Notes under the pieces: generated by a model
Databases searched by the model: none
Told to the model about the DNA's origin: nothing
The model's input: the letters and a program-made list of their open reading frames with translations, nothing else
Program-made: the position numbers and the translations under genes
Shown: positions 31,858 through 46,818 of the stretch, one piece after another
How positions within the stretch are numbered: the stretch's first letter is position 1
Layout: each line of letters begins with the position of its first letter
NCBI GenBank assembly: GCA_903642275.1
Contig: CAHJWK010000019.1
Location: 1-53,836, forward strand
Reading direction: 5' to 3'
From: Chitinophagaceae bacterium
GTDB lineage: Bacteria; Bacteroidota; Bacteroidia; Chitinophagales; Chitinophagaceae
DNA length: 53,836 nucleotides

Positions 31858-34800
31858 ATGCATAGTTGTCATAAGATTATTTTATTGATTTTATTATTGG
31901 TATGCACAGGCAATGTCGCTAAAGCAATTGTAAAAGCTGGTATTTCGGCCAACGGAAAAAATTTAAGTAAGGGAGACACAGTTAAAGTCTGCAAAGGCAG
32001 CAGTATTATTTTTGTATCAAATGCCCAGGGCGTAACTGATGATAGCATCAGATGGACATTTCAAAACGGTACTCCGCCAACTTATATAGGTGCATCAACA
32101 TCTGTGTCATATAGCAATAATGGCGTAAATAAAGTCACCCAGCGCGTTAGTAACGAAATACAAAAAGACTCGCTTATAGTTTATGTTGCAGTATCAGATG
32201 CAACGCCGCCGTCATCCTTTATATTTTCGCCAAATAATGTATGTGCAAGCTCATCCATAAAATTTACAGGCCCTGCTGGTAATAAATTAAGTTACCTGTG
32301 GGATTTTAGTGATGGCACAACATCTGATTCAACAAATCCTGTTCATATATTTACTTCTGCAACAGGCAACGGTTCGCAAACTTTTAATGTTATGCTTACT
32401 ACTACTAATGAATATAGCTGCACAAGTACATCAACCCAAACAGTAACAGTAAAACAAATACCGGATGCAAGTTTAGACAGAGGAGATAATAATGAAAATT
32501 TCAGCATTTTTAATGGCATTCCAACTTTTAGCAGGTGTGATGTACAGAGCAGTTATATGTTTTCTTTTAAAAACGTTTCAACCACAACTGCGACAAATAC
32601 AAGTTATGATATAGACTGGGGAGATGGAAGCCCTCATGCATTTTTTGATAAGACGTGGGCTTTAGGTTCAATTATAACGCATACTTTTTCTAAAGGTAAT
32701 ACTATTGTAACATTAACGGTTAAAGGCCTGGATGGCTGCCTTTCAAATATCAAATACAATGTTTATTTAGGCACTGACGCAGCGGTAACATTAGGCAAGC
32801 CTAAAGACACCAATATCTGCCAGGATTCATCTGTTTCTTTTCCGCTTGATAAATCAGTTTTAACAAGTAATTCTTTTGGTACTTACTATACGTTTAGTGT
32901 TGATGACGGTTCACCAACAATATATTATCCTTCGTTTGATGCATTGCCTTCTTCCTTTCTTATTACACATACTTTTTTAAAGTCATCCTGTGGCTTACCC
33001 AATAATGCTTTTACGGCAAATTTCATTGCTTATAATGCCTGCTCTGCTACTGGAAGTTCAGCCACTGTTCAGCCAATTTATGTATCCGGTAAAACAGCTG
33101 CCGCTGTATCTTTTCCTTTCGGTAATGTAGCCTGCCTGGGTTCTTCAGCGCTTGTTACTGATAATTCTTTTTTAGGAGGAGAGCCACCGGCGTGTAATCA
33201 AACATCAACACGTGTCTGGGTTATATCTCCATCTGCAGGCGTTACTGTAACTGGAATGCCGGGTTCATTTAAAGGTGATAACACACACACAAATTCCTCA
33301 CAGTGGATGTCAGGTGATGCTACATTAAGTCTGGCATTTACAAAGACAGGAACATATAACGTTACGCTTTACGTATCCAATCAAAGCCATTGCAGCGGCG
33401 GTACAGATAGTACTACGAATACCATTTGCGTTCGCAATCCACCGAAGGCATCTTTTACGATAGATAAGCTATTTGCCTGTGATGATACAACCATAACACT
33501 GCAAAACAAATCCGCGGCCGGTGGCTGTGATGGTGATACTTATTTCTGGGATATTAACTCTAAAGATATTTTTGGTTGCAGCCCTTCCCAGAACTACAAT
33601 TTTGTTCAAAATACAACCAATGTTTCTGTGTCGCCTAAAGTACAATTTATGGGTGCTGGGCAATATTATATCAGCTTAACAGCATCAGCTCTTAATGCAG
33701 GTTCCAGCTGTGCTGTTTCAACATTTAATGATACGTTTACTGTAAAAACAAAACCTGTTGTAAACCTAAATGATTTGTCGCCGGTCTGTATTGGCAATCC
33801 TTTAAATGCAACGGCAACCGTTACAAATTGTTATTCAGTGCAGGCACCAAAGTATGCATGGACGTTCACCGGCAGCACCACGCCAACCTCCACTGCCGAT
33901 ACGCCAAAAAATATAATTTATACAACAGCAGGTACATATCCTGTTAAGCTTTCAGTTCAAAACGAATGTGGTATTTCAACTGATGTTGACAGTGCTCATA
34001 TAATTGCCAAGCCTGTTGCCCTTGCCGGCGCAAATAAAACTGTTTGCAGTGGTAACATTTTTTCCATCGGAAAGAATACTGAAACCGGCTTTATTTATAA
34101 ATGGTCACCTTCAACCGGCTTAAGTGATGCCACTGTTGCACAACCAACAATAACACTTGCATACAACGGTAAAAATGATGATACTACTTATAAATATATA
34201 CTTAATGTTTCAGCCGGTGCAAGCTGCCAAGACAATGACACCGTTTTAGTTAAAGTAAAAAAATCACCTTCATTAATCATCAACCCAATTGATACAATTA
34301 TATGCAGCGGGTCAAGTGCAAGAATTATTGCTTCAGGTGCTGATACTTATCTGTGGTCTCCCTCCGCAGGATTAAACACTTCAATCAATGATACAGTAAT
34401 TGCGAAGCCCTCCACAACAACTGCATATACATTGATAGGAACTTTAAACAATGGTTGTAAAGACACTGTTGTATCAACCATAAATATTGCACCGGCAGCT
34501 AAAGCATCTTTTACAGCAACGCACAACTCAGGCTGTATAAATTTTCATCTCGAAGATGTTATAAGTGTACATATTTATCCTGATACAAATGGTATTTATT
34601 ATTGGTATGCAAACAATAAGCTCATAGATTCAACAACCGGTAACTTCCCCGGTTATGTAATGACAATTCCGGGCGATTCTGTTATCATCAAGCTGGTTGT
34701 ATCAAGCAAGTATGGTTGCAAGAAAGATAGTATGCAGATGAAATTTTACAGCCTGCCTTCTGTATTGGCACAATTCAAATCAAGTATAACTTCTGGTTGC

Positions 34801-37644
34801 GGACCTTTAAAAGTTTCATTCACGAATACTTCAAGTTTGATTAACAATGTTGAGTTCTTTTGGGATTTTGGCAATGGTATTATATCAACACAAACACAAC
34901 CCGGTACTATCACTTATAACAATAGTCCTTTTAATAATGATACCAGTTATTATGTAATACTTAAAGCATACAACGGTTGCGATACAACAAGATGGTTTGA
35001 CACCATTAACGTTAGTGCAAACCCAAAAGCAAGGTTTGGTATTGACAGTACATTTGGTTGCTCACCTTATACATTTACTGTCACAAACACATCGCTTGGT
35101 CATCCATCAATATATTACTGGAATTTAGGCGATGGCACAACATTCAATACAGCATCAAATGCACCATTCAAACATACATATTCAACCGGCGTGCTTGACA
35201 CGTTTAATATTCAGTTGATTGCTGTAAATAATTGCGCAAGAGATACGCAAACCATTGCTGTAATTGTATCCCCGAATCCTGTGAAACCGCAGATAAATAT
35301 AAACGGTAACCAGGCAAGCGGATGCGCACCTGCTACCATAACTTTTAATAACAACACAACCGGCGCAACAAAATATACATGGGATTTTGGGGATTCTTCT
35401 GCTTTGTTGATTACGACAAACAACGATGCAGAAGTGTTGCATACCTATACGCAGCCTGGCAGCTTTACCGTTAAAACAGAAATTACCAATGGTTGCAGCG
35501 ATACTACTGTTTTTAATACGGTAATGGTATTTCAAAAACCAGTGGCCGCATTCTCTGTAAACAAAACTAATTTTTGTTTTGGAGATACCGTTAAAACAAC
35601 TGCCACTATAACCAATGCAGATAGCTACCGCTGGGATTGGGGTGATGACACTGTTTCCTCAGGCACTGAGGCTGCACATGTTTATGCAAACAGTGGCACT
35701 TACAATATTACCTTATTCGCAGACCGCATCAATAATTTTGGTATTGTTTGTTCTGATGAAACTCAGAAAACAATTAACGTTATTGCAAAGCCAAATACTA
35801 CAATCAGTGCAAACAATAATGCTGTTAATTGTGCGCCATTTATATTAAATGCAACTGCTCCTGGCTTAACTAAGGAAAGCCTGCAATGGAGTATTATTGA
35901 CAGTACAAATGGAAGTAACATTTTTAGTTCAAACAATAAAGAATTAAGCTATACTTTTTCAAACCAGGGAACTTATTATATAAGATTGAGTGCTGAAAAT
36001 ACTGCAACCTGTTCAGACAGCAGTAAAATTAAACTGCATGTTTACTTTACGCCAGTTGCAGCGTTCACTGCTGCTCAAGGTGCTTGTACAAATGATACGA
36101 TTGTTAACTTCGCAAATACTGGTACGTATAAAGGCTTTGATGCATTGAATTATACATGGCTGGTTAACAATCAAATAATATCATCTCAACAAAACACAAG
36201 CTACCATTTTGTTGCCAATGCAGCTTTGCCGCAAACTTTCAATACTGCTTTGATTGAAAAAAATACAGTTGGCTGCAGCGATACAGCTACGTCAACATTT
36301 ACATTATATCCAAGAGCAACGGCGGCCTTCACTTTAAATAATCCGCAAACCTGCGTGCCGTTTGTCACTTCCATAAACAATACTTCAACAAATGCAATTG
36401 CTTATAAATGGTTAATCAATAATATTTCGGCAAGCACCAGCCAAAATCCAACATTGGTAATTGATAAACCTGCTACTGATTATACGGTTAGTTTAATTGT
36501 ACAAAGCCCGTTTACTTGTCCTTCAGATACTGCTTCTTATAATTTTAAAACATTACCAAAACCGGCAGCATTTTTTATTGCATCAGATACACTTGGTTGC
36601 AGCGGCAGCTTAAGTGTGTCTATCAACAACACTACAACAGGCGCTGTAAACTATACATGGATTTGGGGTGATGGAACGCTAAACAGCAACCTTCAATCAC
36701 CTTCGCATTTTTATGCTAATTCAGGCCAATATCAAATCAATTTAATTGCTGATGATAACACCTGCAAAGACACTGCAACGCAAACAATAAGCATTGAACA
36801 AAATCCCATAGCAGATTTTTCCACAAACACAATAAAAGGTTGCGATACAGTTGTTGTACAGTTCAGTAACCTCAGTTCGAATGCATTCTCATACCTGTGG
36901 TCATTTAGCGATAATACAACAAGCACTTTAGCAGAGCCTGTTAAAAGTTTCCCGCCATCTGCCAATGCATATACAGTTAAGCTTATTGCATACGGAAAAT
37001 ATGGCTGTTCAGCAACAGCCACAAAGCCTACTTATATAAATGCTGTGGTTGCACCAAATGCAGACTTTACAGTATTCCCATCACAAATAGTTAATACGCC
37101 AAACTATACGTTGCAATTCATCAATAATACACTTGAGCTAACTACGTACAGTTATTTATGGAATATGGGTGATGGTTCACACTTCACTACACGTGATGTA
37201 CAGAAATATAATTATAAAGATACCGGCGTTTATCCTGTTAGCCTTGCTGTTACTGATGCAGCTACCAACTGTACGGACACAGCTATAAAGATTGTTCAAA
37301 TAACAGGTGTGCCTGGTTATTTATACGTGCCAAATGCTTTTTGTACAAAATGTGCTGACATTAATTTAAGAACATTCCTGCCGAAAGGCAAAGGTTTGCA
37401 GACTTATCATTTGCAGATTCTTACAACCTGGGGGCAATTATTATTTGAAACAACAGCGCTTGATGCAACCGGCGCACCCAACCAGCCATGGAACGGTTCT
37501 GATGTAAAAGGCAGAGGCCTTGAACAGGATGTTTATATATGGAAGATTGATGCAACGTTTATAAACGGCACTGAGTGGAAAGGCATGAAGTATCCGTATG
37601 CAAACAATTATAAACGCACAGGAACAATAACCATTATAAAATAA
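31858..37644 (+). CDS. Giant PKD-repeat adhesin with gliding/type IX C-terminal domain (SprB-like)
   Basis: A 1928-residue secreted protein. A signal peptide ends near residue 23. Residues about 90-1830 are many PKD-type beta domains, seen as repeats of YLWDFSDGTTSDSTNP, FFWDFGNGI, YYWNLGDGTTF, YTWDFGDSSALL, YRWDWGDDTV and YTWIWGDGTL. Paired cysteines appear regularly (GCSPY, GCAPA). The last 85 residues (YVPNAFCTKCADINL, then HLQILTTWGQLLFET) are the gliding-motility-associated domain that targets the protein to type IX secretion. It is likely a cell-surface adhesin or filament. The PorP/SprF gene follows within 31 bases. Confidence 0.9.
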   Translation: MHSCHKIILLILLLVCTGNVAKAIVKAGISANGKNLSKGDTVKVCKGSSIIFVSNAQGVTDDSIRWTFQNGTPPTYIGASTSVSYSNNGVNKVTQRVSNEIQKDSLIVYVAVSDATPPSSFIFSPNNVCASSSIKFTGPAGNKLSYLWDFSDGTTSDSTNPVHIFTSATGNGSQTFNVMLTTTNEYSCTSTSTQTVTVKQIPDASLDRGDNNENFSIFNGIPTFSRCDVQSSYMFSFKNVSTTTATNTSYDIDWGDGSPHAFFDKTWALGSIITHTFSKGNTIVTLTVKGLDGCLSNIKYNVYLGTDAAVTLGKPKDTNICQDSSVSFPLDKSVLTSNSFGTYYTFSVDDGSPTIYYPSFDALPSSFLITHTFLKSSCGLPNNAFTANFIAYNACSATGSSATVQPIYVSGKTAAAVSFPFGNVACLGSSALVTDNSFLGGEPPACNQTSTRVWVISPSAGVTVTGMPGSFKGDNTHTNSSQWMSGDATLSLAFTKTGTYNVTLYVSNQSHCSGGTDSTTNTICVRNPPKASFTIDKLFACDDTTITLQNKSAAGGCDGDTYFWDINSKDIFGCSPSQNYNFVQNTTNVSVSPKVQFMGAGQYYISLTASALNAGSSCAVSTFNDTFTVKTKPVVNLNDLSPVCIGNPLNATATVTNCYSVQAPKYAWTFTGSTTPTSTADTPKNIIYTTAGTYPVKLSVQNECGISTDVDSAHIIAKPVALAGANKTVCSGNIFSIGKNTETGFIYKWSPSTGLSDATVAQPTITLAYNGKNDDTTYKYILNVSAGASCQDNDTVLVKVKKSPSLIINPIDTIICSGSSARIIASGADTYLWSPSAGLNTSINDTVIAKPSTTTAYTLIGTLNNGCKDTVVSTINIAPAAKASFTATHNSGCINFHLEDVISVHIYPDTNGIYYWYANNKLIDSTTGNFPGYVMTIPGDSVIIKLVVSSKYGCKKDSMQMKFYSLPSVLAQFKSSITSGCGPLKVSFTNTSSLINNVEFFWDFGNGIISTQTQPGTITYNNSPFNNDTSYYVILKAYNGCDTTRWFDTINVSANPKARFGIDSTFGCSPYTFTVTNTSLGHPSIYYWNLGDGTTFNTASNAPFKHTYSTGVLDTFNIQLIAVNNCARDTQTIAVIVSPNPVKPQININGNQASGCAPATITFNNNTTGATKYTWDFGDSSALLITTNNDAEVLHTYTQPGSFTVKTEITNGCSDTTVFNTVMVFQKPVAAFSVNKTNFCFGDTVKTTATITNADSYRWDWGDDTVSSGTEAAHVYANSGTYNITLFADRINNFGIVCSDETQKTINVIAKPNTTISANNNAVNCAPFILNATAPGLTKESLQWSIIDSTNGSNIFSSNNKELSYTFSNQGTYYIRLSAENTATCSDSSKIKLHVYFTPVAAFTAAQGACTNDTIVNFANTGTYKGFDALNYTWLVNNQIISSQQNTSYHFVANAALPQTFNTALIEKNTVGCSDTATSTFTLYPRATAAFTLNNPQTCVPFVTSINNTSTNAIAYKWLINNISASTSQNPTLVIDKPATDYTVSLIVQSPFTCPSDTASYNFKTLPKPAAFFIASDTLGCSGSLSVSINNTTTGAVNYTWIWGDGTLNSNLQSPSHFYANSGQYQINLIADDNTCKDTATQTISIEQNPIADFSTNTIKGCDTVVVQFSNLSSNAFSYLWSFSDNTTSTLAEPVKSFPPSANAYTVKLIAYGKYGCSATATKPTYINAVVAPNADFTVFPSQIVNTPNYTLQFINNTLELTTYSYLWNMGDGSHFTTRDVQKYNYKDTGVYPVSLAVTDAATNCTDTAIKIVQITGVPGYLYVPNAFCTKCADINLRTFLPKGKGLQTYHLQILTTWGQLLFETTALDATGAPNQPWNGSDVKGRGLEQDVYIWKIDATFINGTEWKGMKYPYANNYKRTGTITIIK

Positions 37645-37675
37645 ATTAACACAGCTTATCAGCCAAACCAGTTAT

Positions 37676-38698
37676 ATGCTTAAGTATTTTTTTGTTTTTA
37701 TATTGATGATTACAGGCGTTTGCATACAGGCGCAGGATCATATTTATTCGCAGCCTTACATGGCGCCGTTGTATATGAACCCTGCTGAAGCCGGTGCTGC
37801 TGATAATGATTTACGTTTTAATGCCATCTTCCGTAAGCAATGGATAAGCTTACCGGGTGATATGAATTACTGGACAGTTTCCGTTGATAAATATGTTCCA
37901 TCTTTAGGCGGTGGCTTAGGCCTGATAGCAACAAGTTCCTATGAAGGTTTTATACGTGGTACAAACTTCGCTGCGCAATATTCTTACGAAATATGTAATG
38001 ACGTCTGGGAATTAAGATTGGGCATACAGGCAGGTTTAGGTAACCGCCGTTTAGATTACAGCCACTTAATTTTTGATGACCAGATTGATAATACAGGAAT
38101 TATTCAAGGCTCTGTTTCAGATGCTGATATTGTGATAAATAACAGCCGCTATTTTTTAGATGCTGGCGTTGGCAGTTTATTTTTTTATAAGAATATGTTC
38201 AAGATAGGTATCAGTGCAAACCATATCAACCAGCCGGATGAATCTTTTACCGGCGGTACAGAAAGCAAGTTGCCTGTAAGATGGAACGTTGCAGCACGTG
38301 CTTTTTTTGAAGAAGATAATTGGTACATAGTGCCGGGTGCTGCTTATTACAAACAGGCAAATAATACTTCATGGACGTTGGGCTGCGAAGTAAAAAGCCA
38401 TTATGTATCGCTTGGCACATGGTACAGGGGAAATGTAAATTTTCATGGCAGTAATGCAATTGTTATTACACTTACACTTGATAATTTTTTAGGAAGAGGT
38501 GAAGGTTATAATAAGCTGCGCATGGGTTTTAGTGATGATGCAACAACCGGTGTGTTGCCGTTTACAAGAACGTCTGGCAGTGCCGAAGGCGCAATAGAAT
38601 ACCAGATATTAACAAATGCAAATCTTTCTGCTGAAAACAGGTGCAGGCAAGGTTATTCCGACCGTGGTTCTGTAAAATGTTATGGCGGCTTTAATTAA
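37676..38698 (+). CDS. PorP/SprF family type IX membrane protein
   Basis: A 340-residue outer-membrane barrel protein with a signal peptide (ending CIQAQ). The opening HIYSQPYMAPLYMNPAEAGA is the PorP/SprF hallmark, followed by RFNAIFRKQWISLPGDMN. Such proteins are encoded directly after adhesins with the gliding C-terminal domain and are needed to export and attach that particular partner. Gene order and the 31-base gap point to the 1928-residue adhesin as its client. Confidence 0.93.
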   Translation: MLKYFFVFILMITGVCIQAQDHIYSQPYMAPLYMNPAEAGAADNDLRFNAIFRKQWISLPGDMNYWTVSVDKYVPSLGGGLGLIATSSYEGFIRGTNFAAQYSYEICNDVWELRLGIQAGLGNRRLDYSHLIFDDQIDNTGIIQGSVSDADIVINNSRYFLDAGVGSLFFYKNMFKIGISANHINQPDESFTGGTESKLPVRWNVAARAFFEEDNWYIVPGAAYYKQANNTSWTLGCEVKSHYVSLGTWYRGNVNFHGSNAIVITLTLDNFLGRGEGYNKLRMGFSDDATTGVLPFTRTSGSAEGAIEYQILTNANLSAENRCRQGYSDRGSVKCYGGFN

Positions 38699-39429: not shown

Positions 39430-41517
39430 TCAATCTACGCTAAAACTTATATTTTGTTTTTCTTTGTAAACTACTTTTTGTCCATTTTGAACGGCAGGAA
39501 TCCAATCAGGCCCTTTTGAAATTACACGCACAGCTTCTTCTGCAGTGCCATAACCGGGATCTTTTAACGTTTTTACTTCAGATACCTTTCCATTTTCATC
39601 GATCAGAAATGAAAGTGTAACAGTATAGATTCCTTTTGGTGCATGTTTCTTCGCCGGAATATTAGCGTTCAGGTTTGCTTCAAGAAATTTTTGCCATCCA
39701 TTCAAACCGCCAGGAAATTCCGGCTCTTTTTGCGCTGAAGTAAAAATCGGTTTTGTTGATGTATCTGTTTCCATTTGCCTTAAATTATTATGCTTAAGGG
39801 TTACTTCAATAACACCATTATTTCCCTTATCTCCGTATTTATTTGTTGCCATTGGTCCTTTTAAAACATCTACACTTAAAATATTATTAGGATCATGTGT
39901 TTGCTTATCAGCAGCAGACTGGTCAACAATTTTTCCATCTATAACATATAACGGCATTGGTTGCATTTGCATTGAACTTGACTTAAGAGGCGCATTGGTA
40001 TCGGTCTTGTTTTGGTCTTGAATTTTATACAGTTTCGATTTATCAACTTTATTGTTTGCGTACATGGTAACACCTTGTAAAATATTTTTTGCTATCAGTT
40101 CAATATTTGCATTTTGCTTCAAAAGTTTTACATCTGCAGGGTTTGTCATATAGCCACATTCAATTAGTGTACAGGGAATTTTACTTTGATCCAAAACCCA
40201 TATACCAACGTCACGTTGCATTAAAACCGGTGCAACTGTAAAATCAGTTTGCAGGTTTTGAATAATAGCCGAACCTAACACCTCACTATTTGATAAAACG
40301 TCAGAATTTCTTTTTGATAATATCACTTCCATTCCTGACCTCATTGGTTGATCTTTTGTAGAAGCATTAATATGTACAGATATAAACGCATCTGCATTTT
40401 GTGCATTTACAAAATTTACTTTTTCATGCGGTGACATGTACACATCATTATTACGTGTGAGTATAACATCAATATTATATTCAGGCGATAGTTTTTTTAT
40501 CTCTTTAGATATTTTCAGGCTTAAATCTTTTTCGTTTAAATCGTCGTCAACTGTGCCAAAGTCTTTGCCTCCGTGCCCGGCATCAACCACTAAAACAAAT
40601 GGTTTTGCTGCTTTTATTTTTTGTAATGATGAGGCCTTGTTTTGATTTTTAATTGAGAACGCAGACAGGCAAACAACGGCTGCAATTAACGGAAGCACCA
40701 TAACGCGGCGCAGGTAACTGAATTGTGTCTTTTTTGATGTAGTAAGCATAATTAATCTTCTTTTGATTGATGAATAAAAAATTGACTGTGCAGGTAAAAA
40801 TTCAAACTTTCCATATTTGGCGGCAAGCAGCATTTGGGCAAAAGATGCAGCATTATTATTACCGATGGCTTTTTCATCAGCAATAAACTCATGTATTAAA
40901 TACAATTCTTTTTTAAGCCACCAGAAAAACGGGTTTATCCAATAAAAGCAAAGCACCAGCTGCATACATATTTTATCAAGCGAATGTTTTTGTTTGATGT
41001 GGGTTATTTCATGTTGCAGGATTTGTTTTCCATCATGCGTATTCATATCAATATCATTACGCCAGAAAATATTTTTGAAAAATGAAAAAGGTGCGCTTTG
41101 CAGGTCAGTCTGAATGAAATCAAATTCACTGAATTTACTAAGCGGGTAAACTTTTTTAAGTCTGTAAATTTTAATGATACTTATTGCCAACTGCAATAAC
41201 AACAATATGCTTGTTGCAGTAAGAAGTATTATAATTAATGGTTGCCAGTTATAAGTGTCTTTATCATGTATGATAAAATCTTCACCTTCTGCTGAATAAA
41301 TAAGATGATACATTTTAATTGCACCTGATGAACTGCTATTGAATGAAAACCATTGAAATTGCAGTAGCGGCAGCATCAGGCTTATTGTTACAGTAAGCAG
41401 CAAATAAAATCTATTATAATGATGAAAGCGTTTGTTACGCAAACCAATATAATAGTACATCAGCAATATGCCGCTGATAATGATCACTTTCAGGATATAG
41501 ATAAGTAGTTGTTGCAT
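39430..41517 (-). CDS. BlaR1-type M56 peptidase fused to an amidase, plug motif and TonB domain
   Basis: A 695-residue fusion; ATG 41517 is one base after the blaI-like stop. Residues 1-290 resemble BlaR1/MecR1: membrane helices near 3-22, 36-54, 93-117 and 272-290, with zinc motif HEITH (His169, Glu170, His173) and Glu210 in LIHEFIADE. Residues 305-488 are an N-acetylmuramoyl-L-alanine amidase with all four key residues: His315 (DAGHGG), Glu329, His382 (SVHIN) and Glu453 (LIECG). A SusC-type plug motif follows (521-576, PLYVIDGKI; NNGVIEVTLK), then a TonB C-terminal domain (595-695). Probably a cell-wall sensor whose peptidase clears the repressor. Confidence 0.85.
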   Translation of the reverse strand: MQQLLIYILKVIIISGILLMYYYIGLRNKRFHHYNRFYLLLTVTISLMLPLLQFQWFSFNSSSSGAIKMYHLIYSAEGEDFIIHDKDTYNWQPLIIILLTATSILLLLQLAISIIKIYRLKKVYPLSKFSEFDFIQTDLQSAPFSFFKNIFWRNDIDMNTHDGKQILQHEITHIKQKHSLDKICMQLVLCFYWINPFFWWLKKELYLIHEFIADEKAIGNNNAASFAQMLLAAKYGKFEFLPAQSIFYSSIKRRLIMLTTSKKTQFSYLRRVMVLPLIAAVVCLSAFSIKNQNKASSLQKIKAAKPFVLVVDAGHGGKDFGTVDDDLNEKDLSLKISKEIKKLSPEYNIDVILTRNNDVYMSPHEKVNFVNAQNADAFISVHINASTKDQPMRSGMEVILSKRNSDVLSNSEVLGSAIIQNLQTDFTVAPVLMQRDVGIWVLDQSKIPCTLIECGYMTNPADVKLLKQNANIELIAKNILQGVTMYANNKVDKSKLYKIQDQNKTDTNAPLKSSSMQMQPMPLYVIDGKIVDQSAADKQTHDPNNILSVDVLKGPMATNKYGDKGNNGVIEVTLKHNNLRQMETDTSTKPIFTSAQKEPEFPGGLNGWQKFLEANLNANIPAKKHAPKGIYTVTLSFLIDENGKVSEVKTLKDPGYGTAEEAVRVISKGPDWIPAVQNGQKVVYKEKQNISFSVD

Positions 41518-41518
41518 C

Positions 41519-41875
41519 TTATTTCTTTTTAAGTTGCTGAAGTAAAAGTTCAAGATCCTGAACACTTAATTTTTTTTCATCTATCAAAAAAGAAACTGCC
41601 TTGCTGTAAGAGCCGCCGAAATAAGCTTTCACCATTGTGTTTAATGTATTTTTTGAATAGGCATCTTTACTAACTGCTGGCTTATATTCATTCATTCTGC
41701 CATAAATTGTTGTTTGCACAAAACTTTTTTCAATAAGAATTTTAAGCAAGGTGGCAACAGTGTTGCTGTGCGGTTTCGGTGCAGGCATTGCATCAATCAC
41801 ATCTTTTAAAAAACCTTTTTCTATTTTCCAAAGCGCCTGCATTACCTGTTCTTCAGCCTTGGTGAGTGTCTTCAT
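41519..41875 (-). CDS. BlaI/MecI/CopY family repressor
   Basis: A 118-residue winged-helix repressor. LTKAEEQVMQALWKIEKGF and KPHSNTVATLLKILIEKSFV cover the helix-turn-helix and recognition helix, followed by the wing (YGRMNEYKPAVSKDAY) and the C-terminal dimer helix. It is inactivated in relatives by proteolysis through an M56 membrane partner, and that partner is the next gene, one base away. Three dyads and the promoter sit directly upstream, so it probably represses its own operon. Confidence 0.93.
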   Translation of the reverse strand: MKTLTKAEEQVMQALWKIEKGFLKDVIDAMPAPKPHSNTVATLLKILIEKSFVQTTIYGRMNEYKPAVSKDAYSKNTLNTMVKAYFGGSYSKAVSFLIDEKKLSVQDLELLLQQLKKK

Positions 41876-41907
41876 ATAATTGTTTTTTGTTTGATAAATA
41901 ATTTATA

Positions 41908-41966
41908 ACTAAAAAATTAGTCAAATGTATAACTATTAAATTAGTTATACAACTATTTTTTTAGTT
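41908..41966. promoter_or_regulatory. Triple operator of the BlaI-like repressor
   Basis: Three dyads share the form ACTA-N6-TAGT: 41908-41921 (4-bp arms), 41927-41950 (perfect 9-bp arms GTATAACTA / TAGTTATAC) and 41951-41966 region (arms AACTA / TAGTT at 41951-41955 and 41962-41966). Centres lie near 41914, 41938 and 41958. They surround the promoter boxes of the leftward blaI-like gene. Confidence 0.7.
41922..41952 (-). promoter_or_regulatory. Promoter of the blaI-blaR1-amidase operon
   Basis: On the minus strand TTG (41950-41952) is followed by 20 bases and then TACATTTG (41922-41929), a full Bacteroidota -33/-7 pair. The middle dyad lies between the two boxes and the first dyad covers the expected transcription start, so a bound repressor would block RNA polymerase. 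Confidence 0.7.
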
Positions 41967-42071: not shown

Positions 42072-42758
42072 ATGTTTGATCCGGTAGTTTCAGTAAGCAA
42101 TGCCAATATTTACCAGGGTAATAGCCTGATTTTAAGTGACGTGAATTTTACGGTAAACCGCGGCGAGTTTGTTTATCTTGTTGGTAAAACGGGAACAGGC
42201 AAAAGCAGTTTGCTTAAAACTTTATATGGTGAACTACCCTTGAAAGAAGGCAGTGCAAATGTTACCGGTTATGATCTTACACAAATGACCTGGAAAAAAG
42301 TTCCGTTCCTGCGCCGCAATCTTGGCGTTATTTTTCAGGACTTTCAGTTATTAAGTGACAGAAATGTAAATGAAAACCTGCGTTTTGTTTTAAAAGCTAC
42401 AGGCTGGAAAGATGAAAAACTGGTTGATGAAAAAATAGCGGATGTATTGGATAAAGTAGGTTTGAAAAGCAAGGGCTTTAAAATGACTTATGAACTAAGT
42501 GGCGGCGAACAGCAACGTGTTGATATTGCCAGGGCTTTACTTAATTCACCCAAGCTTATTTTAGCTGATGAACCTACAGGCAACCTTGACCCCGAAACGA
42601 GTGATGAAATAATGCAACTGCTTATTAATATATCAAGAGATTACGGCACTTCGGTAATTATGGCTACGCATGATTTTATTGTAATCAGTAAGTATCCGTC
42701 ACGCATGTTGAAAACAGAAAGATCCAAAGTGTTTGATAGTGCGGTAGCTGAAGTTTAA
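42072..42758 (+). CDS. ftsE: Cell division ABC transporter ATP-binding protein FtsE
   Basis: A 228-residue ABC ATPase. Walker A is [12 protein letters not shown], the Q-loop is VIFQDFQLL, the signature is [15 protein letters not shown], Walker B is [12 protein letters not shown] and the switch His is in MATHDF. Length and the [15 protein letters not shown] segment fit FtsE, which with FtsX controls cell-wall hydrolases at the septum. No ftsX lies next to it, as is common in Bacteroidota. An earlier ATG at 42064 is out of frame. tRNA-Arg follows 7 bases after the stop. Confidence 0.88.
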
Positions 42759-44966: not shown

Positions 44967-45551
44967 ATGCTGTTTATACACAGTTTAAACTTGAAGAATG
45001 AAGAAGCACTTATAAAAGGCTGTATCAAGGAGGATCGCATTTATCAAAATCAATTATATAAATCCTGCGCTGCCAAAATGTTAGGTGTATGTATGCGTTA
45101 TGCAAAAACCAAAGAAGATGCAGAAGATATTTTGCAGGAGGGTTTTATGCAGGTGTTTAAAAACATCAGGCAGTTTAAAAACACAGGCACTTTAGAATCA
45201 TGGATGAAAAGAATATTTATTAATTGCGCATTGCAAAAATTAAGAGATAGGAAAAATCAATATGTTTTTATAGAAATTGATATTATACATGAAAAATATA
45301 TGATTGATCACACAGTTGAGCAGGATATAGATGCAAAGATTTTAATCAGGTGCATACAAAATCTTCCACTTGTAAGCAGGCTTGTTTTTAATCTATATGT
45401 TTTTGAAGGATTTAAGCATAGGGAAATTGCACAAATGCTTAAAATATCTGAAGGCACCTCTAAATCAAACTTGTTTGATGCCAGGAGCAATCTAAAAAAA
45501 CAACTAAAGTATTATAACCTATTTTTTATTAAAAGCGCTGCCAATGGCTAA
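44967..45551 (+). CDS. ECF-type RNA polymerase sigma factor
   Basis: A 194-residue sigma-70 family protein. Region 2 covers residues 25-95 (YAKTKEDAEDILQEGFMQVF, the -10 and core-binding helices; ESWMKRIFINCALQKLRD). Region 4 covers 120-180 (LPLVSRLVFNLYVFEGFKHR, EIAQMLKISEGTSKSNLFDA). It directs transcription of a small regulon, here likely with the membrane partner whose gene overlaps its end by eight bases. The TTTA-rich 5' region has no clear promoter. Confidence 0.9.
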   Translation: MLFIHSLNLKNEEALIKGCIKEDRIYQNQLYKSCAAKMLGVCMRYAKTKEDAEDILQEGFMQVFKNIRQFKNTGTLESWMKRIFINCALQKLRDRKNQYVFIEIDIIHEKYMIDHTVEQDIDAKILIRCIQNLPLVSRLVFNLYVFEGFKHREIAQMLKISEGTSKSNLFDARSNLKKQLKYYNLFFIKSAANG

Positions 45552-46818
45552 ACATTTACTTAATAAAACAGATGACCTTTTTCTGCAGCATTTAAAAGAT
45601 TATAGTGAAGAGCCAGAAAAAAAAATATGGTCAGCCATCGATAAAAGATTATCTGATTATGAAAATGAAAAGCCTGCAAATTCAATCTTAATAACATCAG
45701 GCAAAGCAGCAGCTGTTATATTTTTATTGTTTTTGCCATTGCTGTTAATTGATTCATTATTGTTACAAAAAATTACAACAAAGACTATAGTAAGTAGTAA
45801 TGTGTATCATCAAAATAAAGTAATTCAATTTACATCAAACACATCTCAGCCAGTACAGAATTTAAAAGTTAAAACGTTTGTAACCGTAATCGATAAAAAA
45901 TTAAATTCATTAAATAACTCTCAAAAAAATTCTTCTATTGTTGAGATAGTTCCATCAGATAATTTAAAGAATTTGGCAGTAAATAATAAACAGCAAAAAA
46001 TAATTGAAGTTCATCCTTTACTTTTTTTAAAAAATGATTCAGGTAAAAATGGTAAAGAAAATGAAGGTAAGGTTGCGTCAACAATAATTAAACTTCCTAC
46101 TAAACATAGCTTTTATATCATACCATTCTTTTCAGCAGATCATATCTCCGGAAGGTTTATTGAGCAATATGAATTTGACAATTTAAATAAAAATGATTAT
46201 GACAAGAGAGAGAACCCTGATATGTCTTTTACAGGAGGCTTACTTGCTTCATATAAATTAAACAAAAGATTCAGTATATTAACTGGAGCTTCTTTTTCAA
46301 TATCCAATCTTTCAATAACAACTACGGCAGTTAAAGCATTTGCAGATGCAAGCGGTGTGTATAAATTCAAGTTAGCAACATCGTATGGTTTTGCTGAAAT
46401 AGACAAGTCAGGAATTACTCCAAATGCAGGTGATTCTTTATTGGTATCAAGTGCGTCTATGCAGTTTAATTATATATCTTTTCCATTGCTGGTTAGTTAT
46501 AATTTAGGTGGTAAAAAAATAAAATACAGCGTACACGGCGGCTATGCTATTAATAAGTTAGTGAGCGAAAAAGTAAAAGCTGAATATGAAGTGCAAAACA
46601 ATGAGGAAAATGAAACTATAAATAAGATTGAAGGTATAAGAAAAACTTTTTTTACGTTGAATACCGGTGCTGAAGCAAAATATTCAGTGAGCAAAAAAAT
46701 AGATATTTCAATTAGTCCTGAACTGCGTTACGGGCTTAACTCTATCAACAAAAAAACGCCTATCAAAACATTTCCTGTCAATTATGGTTTGTCATTGGAT
46801 GCATACCTCAAATTATAA
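45544..46818 (+). CDS. Predicted anti-sigma-like membrane protein with outer-membrane beta-barrel-type domain
   Basis: A 424-residue protein whose ATG overlaps the sigma gene by eight bases. Residues 1-48 are a soluble head (LFLQHLKDYSEEPEKKIWSA), a membrane helix lies near 51-73, a Lys/Asn/Ser-rich linker follows to 185, and residues 190-424 look like a PorT-type beta barrel (GGLLASYKLNKRFSILTGAS, FNYISFPLLVSYNLG, YGLSLDAYLKL). A sigma-binding head joined to a barrel-like sensor is common in Bacteroidota, but whether the barrel spans a membrane is unclear. Confidence 0.7.
   Translation: MAKHLLNKTDDLFLQHLKDYSEEPEKKIWSAIDKRLSDYENEKPANSILITSGKAAAVIFLLFLPLLLIDSLLLQKITTKTIVSSNVYHQNKVIQFTSNTSQPVQNLKVKTFVTVIDKKLNSLNNSQKNSSIVEIVPSDNLKNLAVNNKQQKIIEVHPLLFLKNDSGKNGKENEGKVASTIIKLPTKHSFYIIPFFSADHISGRFIEQYEFDNLNKNDYDKRENPDMSFTGGLLASYKLNKRFSILTGASFSISNLSITTTAVKAFADASGVYKFKLATSYGFAEIDKSGITPNAGDSLLVSSASMQFNYISFPLLVSYNLGGKKIKYSVHGGYAINKLVSEKVKAEYEVQNNEENETINKIEGIRKTFFTLNTGAEAKYSVSKKIDISISPELRYGLNSINKKTPIKTFPVNYGLSLDAYLKL

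Follow-up and report, generated by a model that had tools for sequence, protein, structure and literature searches.

The window analyzed here, the whole stretch of 53,836 nucleotides (positions 1 to 53,836 of contig CAHJWK010000019.1, assembly GCA_903642275.1) from a Chitinophagaceae bacterium, contains a gene pair in which a BlaI-family repressor is followed by a BlaR1-like membrane protease (family M56) that carries a peptidoglycan amidase in the same polypeptide. Taken together, the sequence evidence argues strongly for a BlaI/BlaR1-type circuit with a peptidoglycan amidase module. BlaR1-type receptors are known as antibiotic sensors, and here a wall-cutting enzyme replaces the drug-binding domain on a protease of this type across a large bacterial family; its fusion beside a matching repressor suggests an unstudied way to monitor or adjust the cell wall. 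That the circuit is autoregulated and that its periplasmic module, a short zinc-type N-acetylmuramoyl-L-alanine amidase, serves as its sensor is a proposal for which we consider the chances evenly balanced. No paper treating an M56-amidase fusion by title or abstract came up in searches of the open-access literature, most subscription journals lying outside it. The features of the gene pair are:

41519..41875, minus strand: BlaI/MecI-family repressor gene, 118 amino acids (Penicillinase_R match)
39430..41517, minus strand: sensor gene, 695 amino acids, a single open frame in the order M56 protease, amidase, plug-like segment, TonB_C
40603..41517, minus strand: membrane/M56 module, residues 1-305 (hydropathy, alignments, BlaR1 spacing)
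40054..40602, minus strand: Amidase_3 domain, residues 306-488 (Pfam, alignments, solved relatives)
39793..39960, minus strand: SusC/RagA plug-like segment, approximately residues 520-575, limits approximate, optional module (sub-threshold Pfam and NCBIfam matches, profile match)
39439..39624, minus strand: TonB C-terminal domain, residues 632-693, optional module (Pfam)

A first-pass annotation of this DNA had described a single chain of M56 protease, amidase, plug and TonB domain with a BlaI-like gene one base upstream, and the open frame, the domain order and the spacing were all reproduced. The sensor gene starts with the ATG at 41517, its stop ends at 39430 and one base separates it from the BlaI gene. 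In the Pfam scan the sensor matched Amidase_3 (residues 310-484, E 5.9e-40), Peptidase_M56 (157-258, E 1.3e-9) and TonB_C (632-693, E 3.6e-8), the last in agreement with the TonB domain claimed earlier, and the repressor matched Penicillinase_R (E 3.3e-27, 95.5 bits, cut-off 22.6). The penicillin-binding (class D-like) C-terminal domain was absent from the scan of the sensor, Amidase_3, TonB_C and the plug-like match being found instead, and because of this absence the system is classed as a BlaI-M56 pair and not as a BlaR1 beta-lactam sensor; the blaR1_generic model scored 21.9 bits on the sensor against a cut-off of 400. An AlphaFold model, built from three input sequences, had a mean pLDDT of 45 and was too poor to use.

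The fused frame is widespread in the family. A whole-protein search of 195 genomes of the family, the source genome included and up to five candidates scored in each, matched 194 of them, many through one module only. M56 and amidase were found in one frame at 60 distinct loci, which represent no fewer than 59 of the 195 genomes and 42 of the 101 genera, together with one named Niastella record; these counts are lower bounds, as they cover chosen matches among those listed and leave aside matches at contig ends. The sixtieth locus (L227) stands outside the alignments, Pfam finding both domains in it and its sequence carrying all four amidase residues, and the alignment of 60 rows comprises 59 distinct proteins, L035 and L079 encoding an identical one. 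Because the same fused frame recurs in at least 42 genera, chance adjacency is excluded, and an assembly join, which the first-pass annotation had named as a way in which its proposal could fail, has a negligible probability given that 59 or more of the 195 genomes, and the Niastella record as well, show the same frame. The amidase is not normally a separate gene either: a free amidase gene of the same lineage as the fused ones was seen only in genus g13. At order level (119 genomes) no match outside the family covered both the HExxH motif and the amidase, among the matches listed. At phylum level (247 genomes, strict threshold, up to four candidates each) BlaI was found with an M56-amidase protein in one genome that belongs to a different family of the class, so that the fusion is not quite confined to one family. 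At two loci (L089 and L091) two tandem M56 genes stand behind one BlaI and the second alone carries the amidase, and at two others (L203 and L231) such a tandem has the amidase in neither gene.

The constant part of the sensor is its two-domain core. Both core domains were present in all 59 scanned members, while TonB_C was found in 27 and Plug in 18. As the plug/TonB tail is optional, the four-domain form described by the first-pass annotation is one version of the M56-amidase core. The plug itself was the weakest element of that description: the Pfam Plug match (21.2 bits, cut-off 23.9) and the SusC_RagA signature (26.7, cut-off 46.2) both fall under the family cut-offs, whereas a profile of the 59 sequences matched solved SusC over the plug region with an E-value of 5.6e-8, solved SusC/RagA chains being matched. 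No outer-membrane barrel family was found in the Pfam scan of the sensor, only the plug-like segment. In 4 of the 59 fused proteins a secretion-type C-terminal sorting domain was seen and in 2 of the 59 GldM_3rd, which is odd for an inner-membrane protein.

In the M56 module the gluzincin residues of BlaR1, HExxH and ExxxD, are retained. The HEITH motif noted earlier lies at residues 169-173 and the downstream Glu is E210; E210xxxD214 stands 41 residues past H169, a spacing equal to that of BlaR1 H201/E242. HExxH is present in all 60 aligned rows, and H169, E170, H173, E210, and D214 are invariant in the alignment of 59 sequences. Where BlaR1 has Asp210, as located by offset, the fused proteins invariably have His178. 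Columns 246 and 247, in a loop ahead of the invariant Arg254, hold Phe in 57 and 54 of the 60 rows, respectively (Ile246-Phe247 in the window sensor, at the candidate self-cleavage loop), and this loop resembles in sequence the one at which BlaR1 cuts itself. The cytosolic M56 part has the highest mean pairwise identity (43%), followed by the amidase (35%) as the next best conserved segment, TM1-3 (30%) and the tail (27-30%, over fewer rows). By hydropathy there are four hydrophobic segments, near residues 4-22, 37-57, 94-120, and 272-290. As these fit the Nout/Cout topology reported for BlaR1 (PMC9834060), the amidase would by analogy lie outside the inner membrane.

The amidase domain is of the short type and has kept its metal site throughout. 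The four residues named by the first-pass annotation (His315, Glu329, His382, and Glu453) are correctly numbered from the sensor ATG; the first three are the metal ligands and Glu453 is the catalytic residue. Conservation across homologues, the check proposed together with a search for M56-amidase architectures (found at the 60 loci above), was seen for the metal ligands in 60 of 60 rows and for Glu453 in 55, the window included. Glu453 is replaced by Q in L054 and L083, G in L057, A in L084, and S in L092, all five with the metal site kept. It is conceivable, from metal ligands present in every row beside a catalytic residue lost in five, that the domain is a dead or slow amidase that only binds, recognizing stem peptides, but this is very unlikely given the full residue set in 55 of the 60 rows, the window among them. 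The domain aligns unbroken through 4rn7 and 5emi, whereas extra residues split its alignment with 8c2o (AmiA) and 4bin (AmiC), and the inhibitory insert of AmiA and AmiC is missing. The source genome has one other Amidase_3 match (C34), and there the profile extends over 765 bases, compared with 525 in the sensor. CwlD and LytH (7tj4) are among the solved relatives of the domain. LytH has been reported to require ActH, a transmembrane protein, for its activity, and CwlD of C. difficile to be activated by a partner protein (PMC8496864). The presence of LytH among the relatives could thus suggest that the polytopic M56 part holds and activates the amidase, in the manner of ActH and LytH, with BlaI setting only its level; the invariant catalytic residues of the M56 domain would be needless for a pure tether, and we regard this explanation as unlikely.

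A BlaI gene lies upstream in 57 of the 60 fused loci; of the other three, L074 and L083 are without BlaI in the stretch examined and L087 is cut by a contig end. BlaR1 has been described to cut BlaI directly, with the cleavage point at Asn101-Phe102 (PMC9834060). Ser95-Phe96 of the window BlaI aligns with the MecI Asn-Phe at the known cleavage point, and Ser95 is found in 55 and Phe96 in 45 of 57 BlaI rows. M56 genes and BlaI genes each number three in the source genome and occur at the same three places. At the two further BlaI-M56 pairs (L152, L153; C41, C102) the operator pattern described below is absent from L153 and occurs once in L152, about 2.4 kb before its blaI; these repressors may for that reason use other operators.

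Upstream of the repressor gene, three inverted repeats interleave with a putative promoter:

41951..41966, unstranded: operator dyad 1, AACTA-N6-TAGTT (sequence pattern)
41931..41946, unstranded: operator dyad 2, AACTA-N6-TAGTT, within the promoter spacer (sequence pattern)
41907..41922, unstranded: operator dyad 3, ACTA-N6-TAGT, one outer base differing (sequence pattern)
41922..41952, minus strand: putative blaI promoter TTG-N20-TACATTTG, of the Bacteroidetes -33/-7 type, interleaved with the dyads

The interval delimited earlier (39430-41966) ends precisely at dyad 1, the outermost one, on which the wording of the first-pass annotation is silent. The core ACTA-N6-TAGT resembles the staphylococcal mec/bla operator, the string of which was not found in the papers searched. 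The promoter agrees with the TAnnTTTG consensus at -7 and more loosely with the motif at -33; the consensus reported for Bacteroidetes is TTTG / TAnnTTTG, the -33 motif being described as not found in Flavobacterium johnsoniae (PMC7366714). Among the 56 testable fused loci, i.e., those with enough upstream sequence, at least one dyad was found within 250 bp upstream in 53 and at least two in 49, where 0.0046 would be expected per 250 bp. The commonest spacing between dyads is 20 bp (54 pairs, fused and non-fused loci taken together). The strict promoter pattern was seen in 26 of the 97 regions upstream of blaI, and 25 of these 26 have a dyad within the spacer; the corresponding figure for base-shuffled sequences was 0.5%. 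Three testable fused loci (L039, L042, and L092) have no dyad before blaI; in the first two dyads stand just before an extra gene preceding blaI, which leaves L092 as the only one truly without them. In L039 (3320-5713, G141) and L042 (4042-6435, G070), from two genera, the gene between the tandem operators and blaI is permease-like (MacB/FtsX-like in L039, and clustering with it in L042, the latter by clustering only), and it may belong to the same operon as blaI. Dyads were also seen close upstream of BlaI-M56 pairs in other families of the class (L256-L263 and L265, most with unrelated tails), and at one such locus (L264) no ACTA-N6-TAGT dyad was seen.

The three dyads over the operon's own promoter are strong sequence evidence for putative BlaI operators and an autoregulated circuit. 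Of 13 chosen genomes, 12 have tandem dyads, which apart from one extra place in G063 are confined to this locus, and a reversed control pattern gave one hit over all 13 genomes. Since tandem dyads are almost restricted to the blaI-sensor locus, BlaI would control mainly its own operon, and the natural reading of these sequences is that it represses this operon and little else. A larger BlaI regulon was looked for and rejected: of the 20 strict sites in the source genome 2 are at the blaI promoter, 15 inside open reading frames and 3 intergenic, none of the intergenic sites lies ahead of a recognizable wall gene, and with the reversed control 48 sites were obtained against the 20; these scans used the strict pattern, which weaker sites would escape. 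The extra place in G063 (L154, 2362-2400) is close upstream of a 386-amino-acid open reading frame of unassigned role.

These elements can be assembled into a mechanism. At rest BlaI is predicted to occupy the three dyads, which interleave with its operon's promoter. On the outer side of the inner membrane the amidase would meet accessible stem peptides, binding or cutting them, and this contact might shift the membrane helices and so switch the protease. The M56 domain, which would face the cytoplasm, may once activated cut BlaI near Ser95-Phe96, as its conserved residues suggest from the case of BlaR1. The operon would then be derepressed to give more sensor-amidase, so that sensing and wall cutting would rise and fall together. 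The argument that the amidase senses is taken from its position in the chain, which is that of the BlaR1 sensor. If it does, there would be a direct route from the state of the peptidoglycan to gene expression, and a clue to the non-beta-lactam signals of M56 proteins. A more specific version, which we put forward tentatively and would not favor at present, is that of a catalytic wall sensor, in which the cleavage of uncrosslinked stem peptides by the amidase, or its contact with them, would cause the linked protease to destroy its own operon's repressor. One polypeptide would then be receptor, wall enzyme and switch of its own gene, a homeostat of wall trimming that is complete in itself and independent of further target genes.

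Several observations weigh against the mechanism proposed here. A further 45 M56 proteins of the family (chosen as strong matches, and therefore not a proportion) have no amidase, and BlaI was found within three genes upstream of all 45; at least one dyad was present at 36 of the 41 testable non-fused loci. As BlaI and, in most cases, the operators are retained beside the amidase-less proteins, the circuit should be able to work in the absence of the amidase. In addition, Glu453 is lost in five of the 60 rows, the strict promoter pattern is missing from 71 of the 97 blaI upstream regions, and in genome G013 of genus g13 a separate amidase gene lies beside blaI, between ftsE and the operators and not behind them. 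On an M56 tree of 105 domains (60 fused and 45 not) the amidase label requires 18 changes, at least five of them forced by well-supported branches. The earlier proposal of a BlaI/BlaR1-type circuit with an amidase in the place of the penicillin-binding sensor is thus retained, and it is the amidase as only sensor against which the 45 relatives weigh. That the amidase senses, and that a muropeptide or wall damage might be the signal, stays a hypothesis of that annotation, which is therefore supported in part.

It is also possible, though we would not put it first, that the amidase is the regulated output: BlaI would control little beyond its own operon, and derepression would deliver a tethered amidase. 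The distribution of strict sites (2 of 20 at the blaI promoter, 15 of the other 18 inside open reading frames), the near restriction of tandem sites to this locus and the circuit and operators mostly kept by non-fused relatives are in agreement with this, as is the short amidase, control of which by expression would make sense because the AmiA/AmiC-type insert is missing. Under this explanation the signal might, again with some doubt, enter through the membrane part, through the variable tail or in the form of a peptidoglycan dipeptide in the cytoplasm, with BlaI itself as its binding partner. A peptidoglycan dipeptide has been reported to bind B. licheniformis BlaI and S. aureus MecI at millimolar affinity and to loosen the DNA complex (PMC3305447). 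On the other hand, the amidase has the chain position of the BlaR1 sensor, five members with a metal site but without the catalytic Glu are hard to explain for a payload enzyme, and the split-off amidase gene of G013 is not behind the tandem operator. If the amidase is indeed the output, a simple self-controlled wall-enzyme circuit would result. The two explanations could be linked, as the amidase could raise the supply of peptides binding BlaI itself. The system is compact enough to test, with operators and residues to mutate identified.

With regard to the history of the fusion, addition of nine outside rows to the M56 tree, with two long rows left out, gave 19 label changes of which 9 are forced, and the Niastella record nests among the family rows. 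Two label changes suffice on the amidase tree (fused against free amidases sampled from ten genomes, and the free amidase of genus g13), where the g13 amidase nests inside the clade of the window with strong support. In G112, a relative of G013, the split-off amidase and the M56 gene found in that genome are on different contigs. On these trees, which have no fixed root and leave many forks open, the simplest story within the family would be one fusion, repeated loss and one split. With the non-family fusion added, the amidase tree needs 3 label changes instead of 2; the M56 domain of that fusion groups with M56 domains from outside the family, and its amidase was not placed. As the tree is a single, quickly built one and its branches are long, this is a hint that the M56-amidase pairing may have arisen more than once.

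The conserved neighbor on the other side of the operators is:

42072..42758, plus strand: divergent ftsE-like ABC ATPase gene (best NCBIfam model TIGR02673 FtsE, under cut-off)

The TIGR02673 match reached 231 bits against a cut-off of 264.85. Of the fused M56 genes 25 of 60, and of the non-fused ones 15 of 46, have a divergent ftsE no more than three genes upstream, and as it is present at both kinds of loci it belongs to the locus and not to the amidase. The dyads interleave with the blaI promoter, and co-regulation of ftsE stays a candidate. Elsewhere in the window Pfam identifies many PKD domains in a 1928-amino-acid protein whose gene precedes one of the PorP/SprF type (31858-38698), a pair typical of type IX secretion, and an ECF-type sigma factor gene that overlaps the start of a 424-amino-acid gene (44967-46818), a possible regulator pair.

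The nearest known systems are BlaI/BlaR1 and MecI/MecR1 of S. aureus and B. licheniformis, with which the locus shares a BlaI-family repressor adjoining an M56 metalloprotease. Also common to them are the four hydrophobic segments of the protease, the equal distance between HExxH and ExxxD, dyads ahead of the operon and, in most fused-locus members, a Phe at the repressor cleavage point. The locus differs from them in that the periplasmic domain is Amidase_3 and not penicillin-binding, the BlaR1 Asp210 position is His178, no beta-lactamase or penicillin-binding protein is found among the neighboring genes read and the tandem operators are almost only at its own locus. Other Bacteroidota BlaI-M56 pairs (the non-fused family loci and nine of the ten other-family loci) belong to the same BlaI and M56 families and mostly have ACTA-N6-TAGT dyads; they include tails of the kind seen in the window (plug, TonB_C) as well as unrelated ones, and are without amidase. 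The plug-like segment recalls SusC/RagA TonB-dependent receptors, from which the sensor differs in having no barrel. The AmiA/B/C division amidases have an inhibitory helix insert that the sensor's amidase does not have, whereas amidases of the CwlD/CwlV/LytH type are, like it, short zinc enzymes with the same four residues and no such insert; unlike these, the sensor's amidase is covalently linked to a membrane-spanning protease, and its coding sequence comes immediately after that of the repressor.

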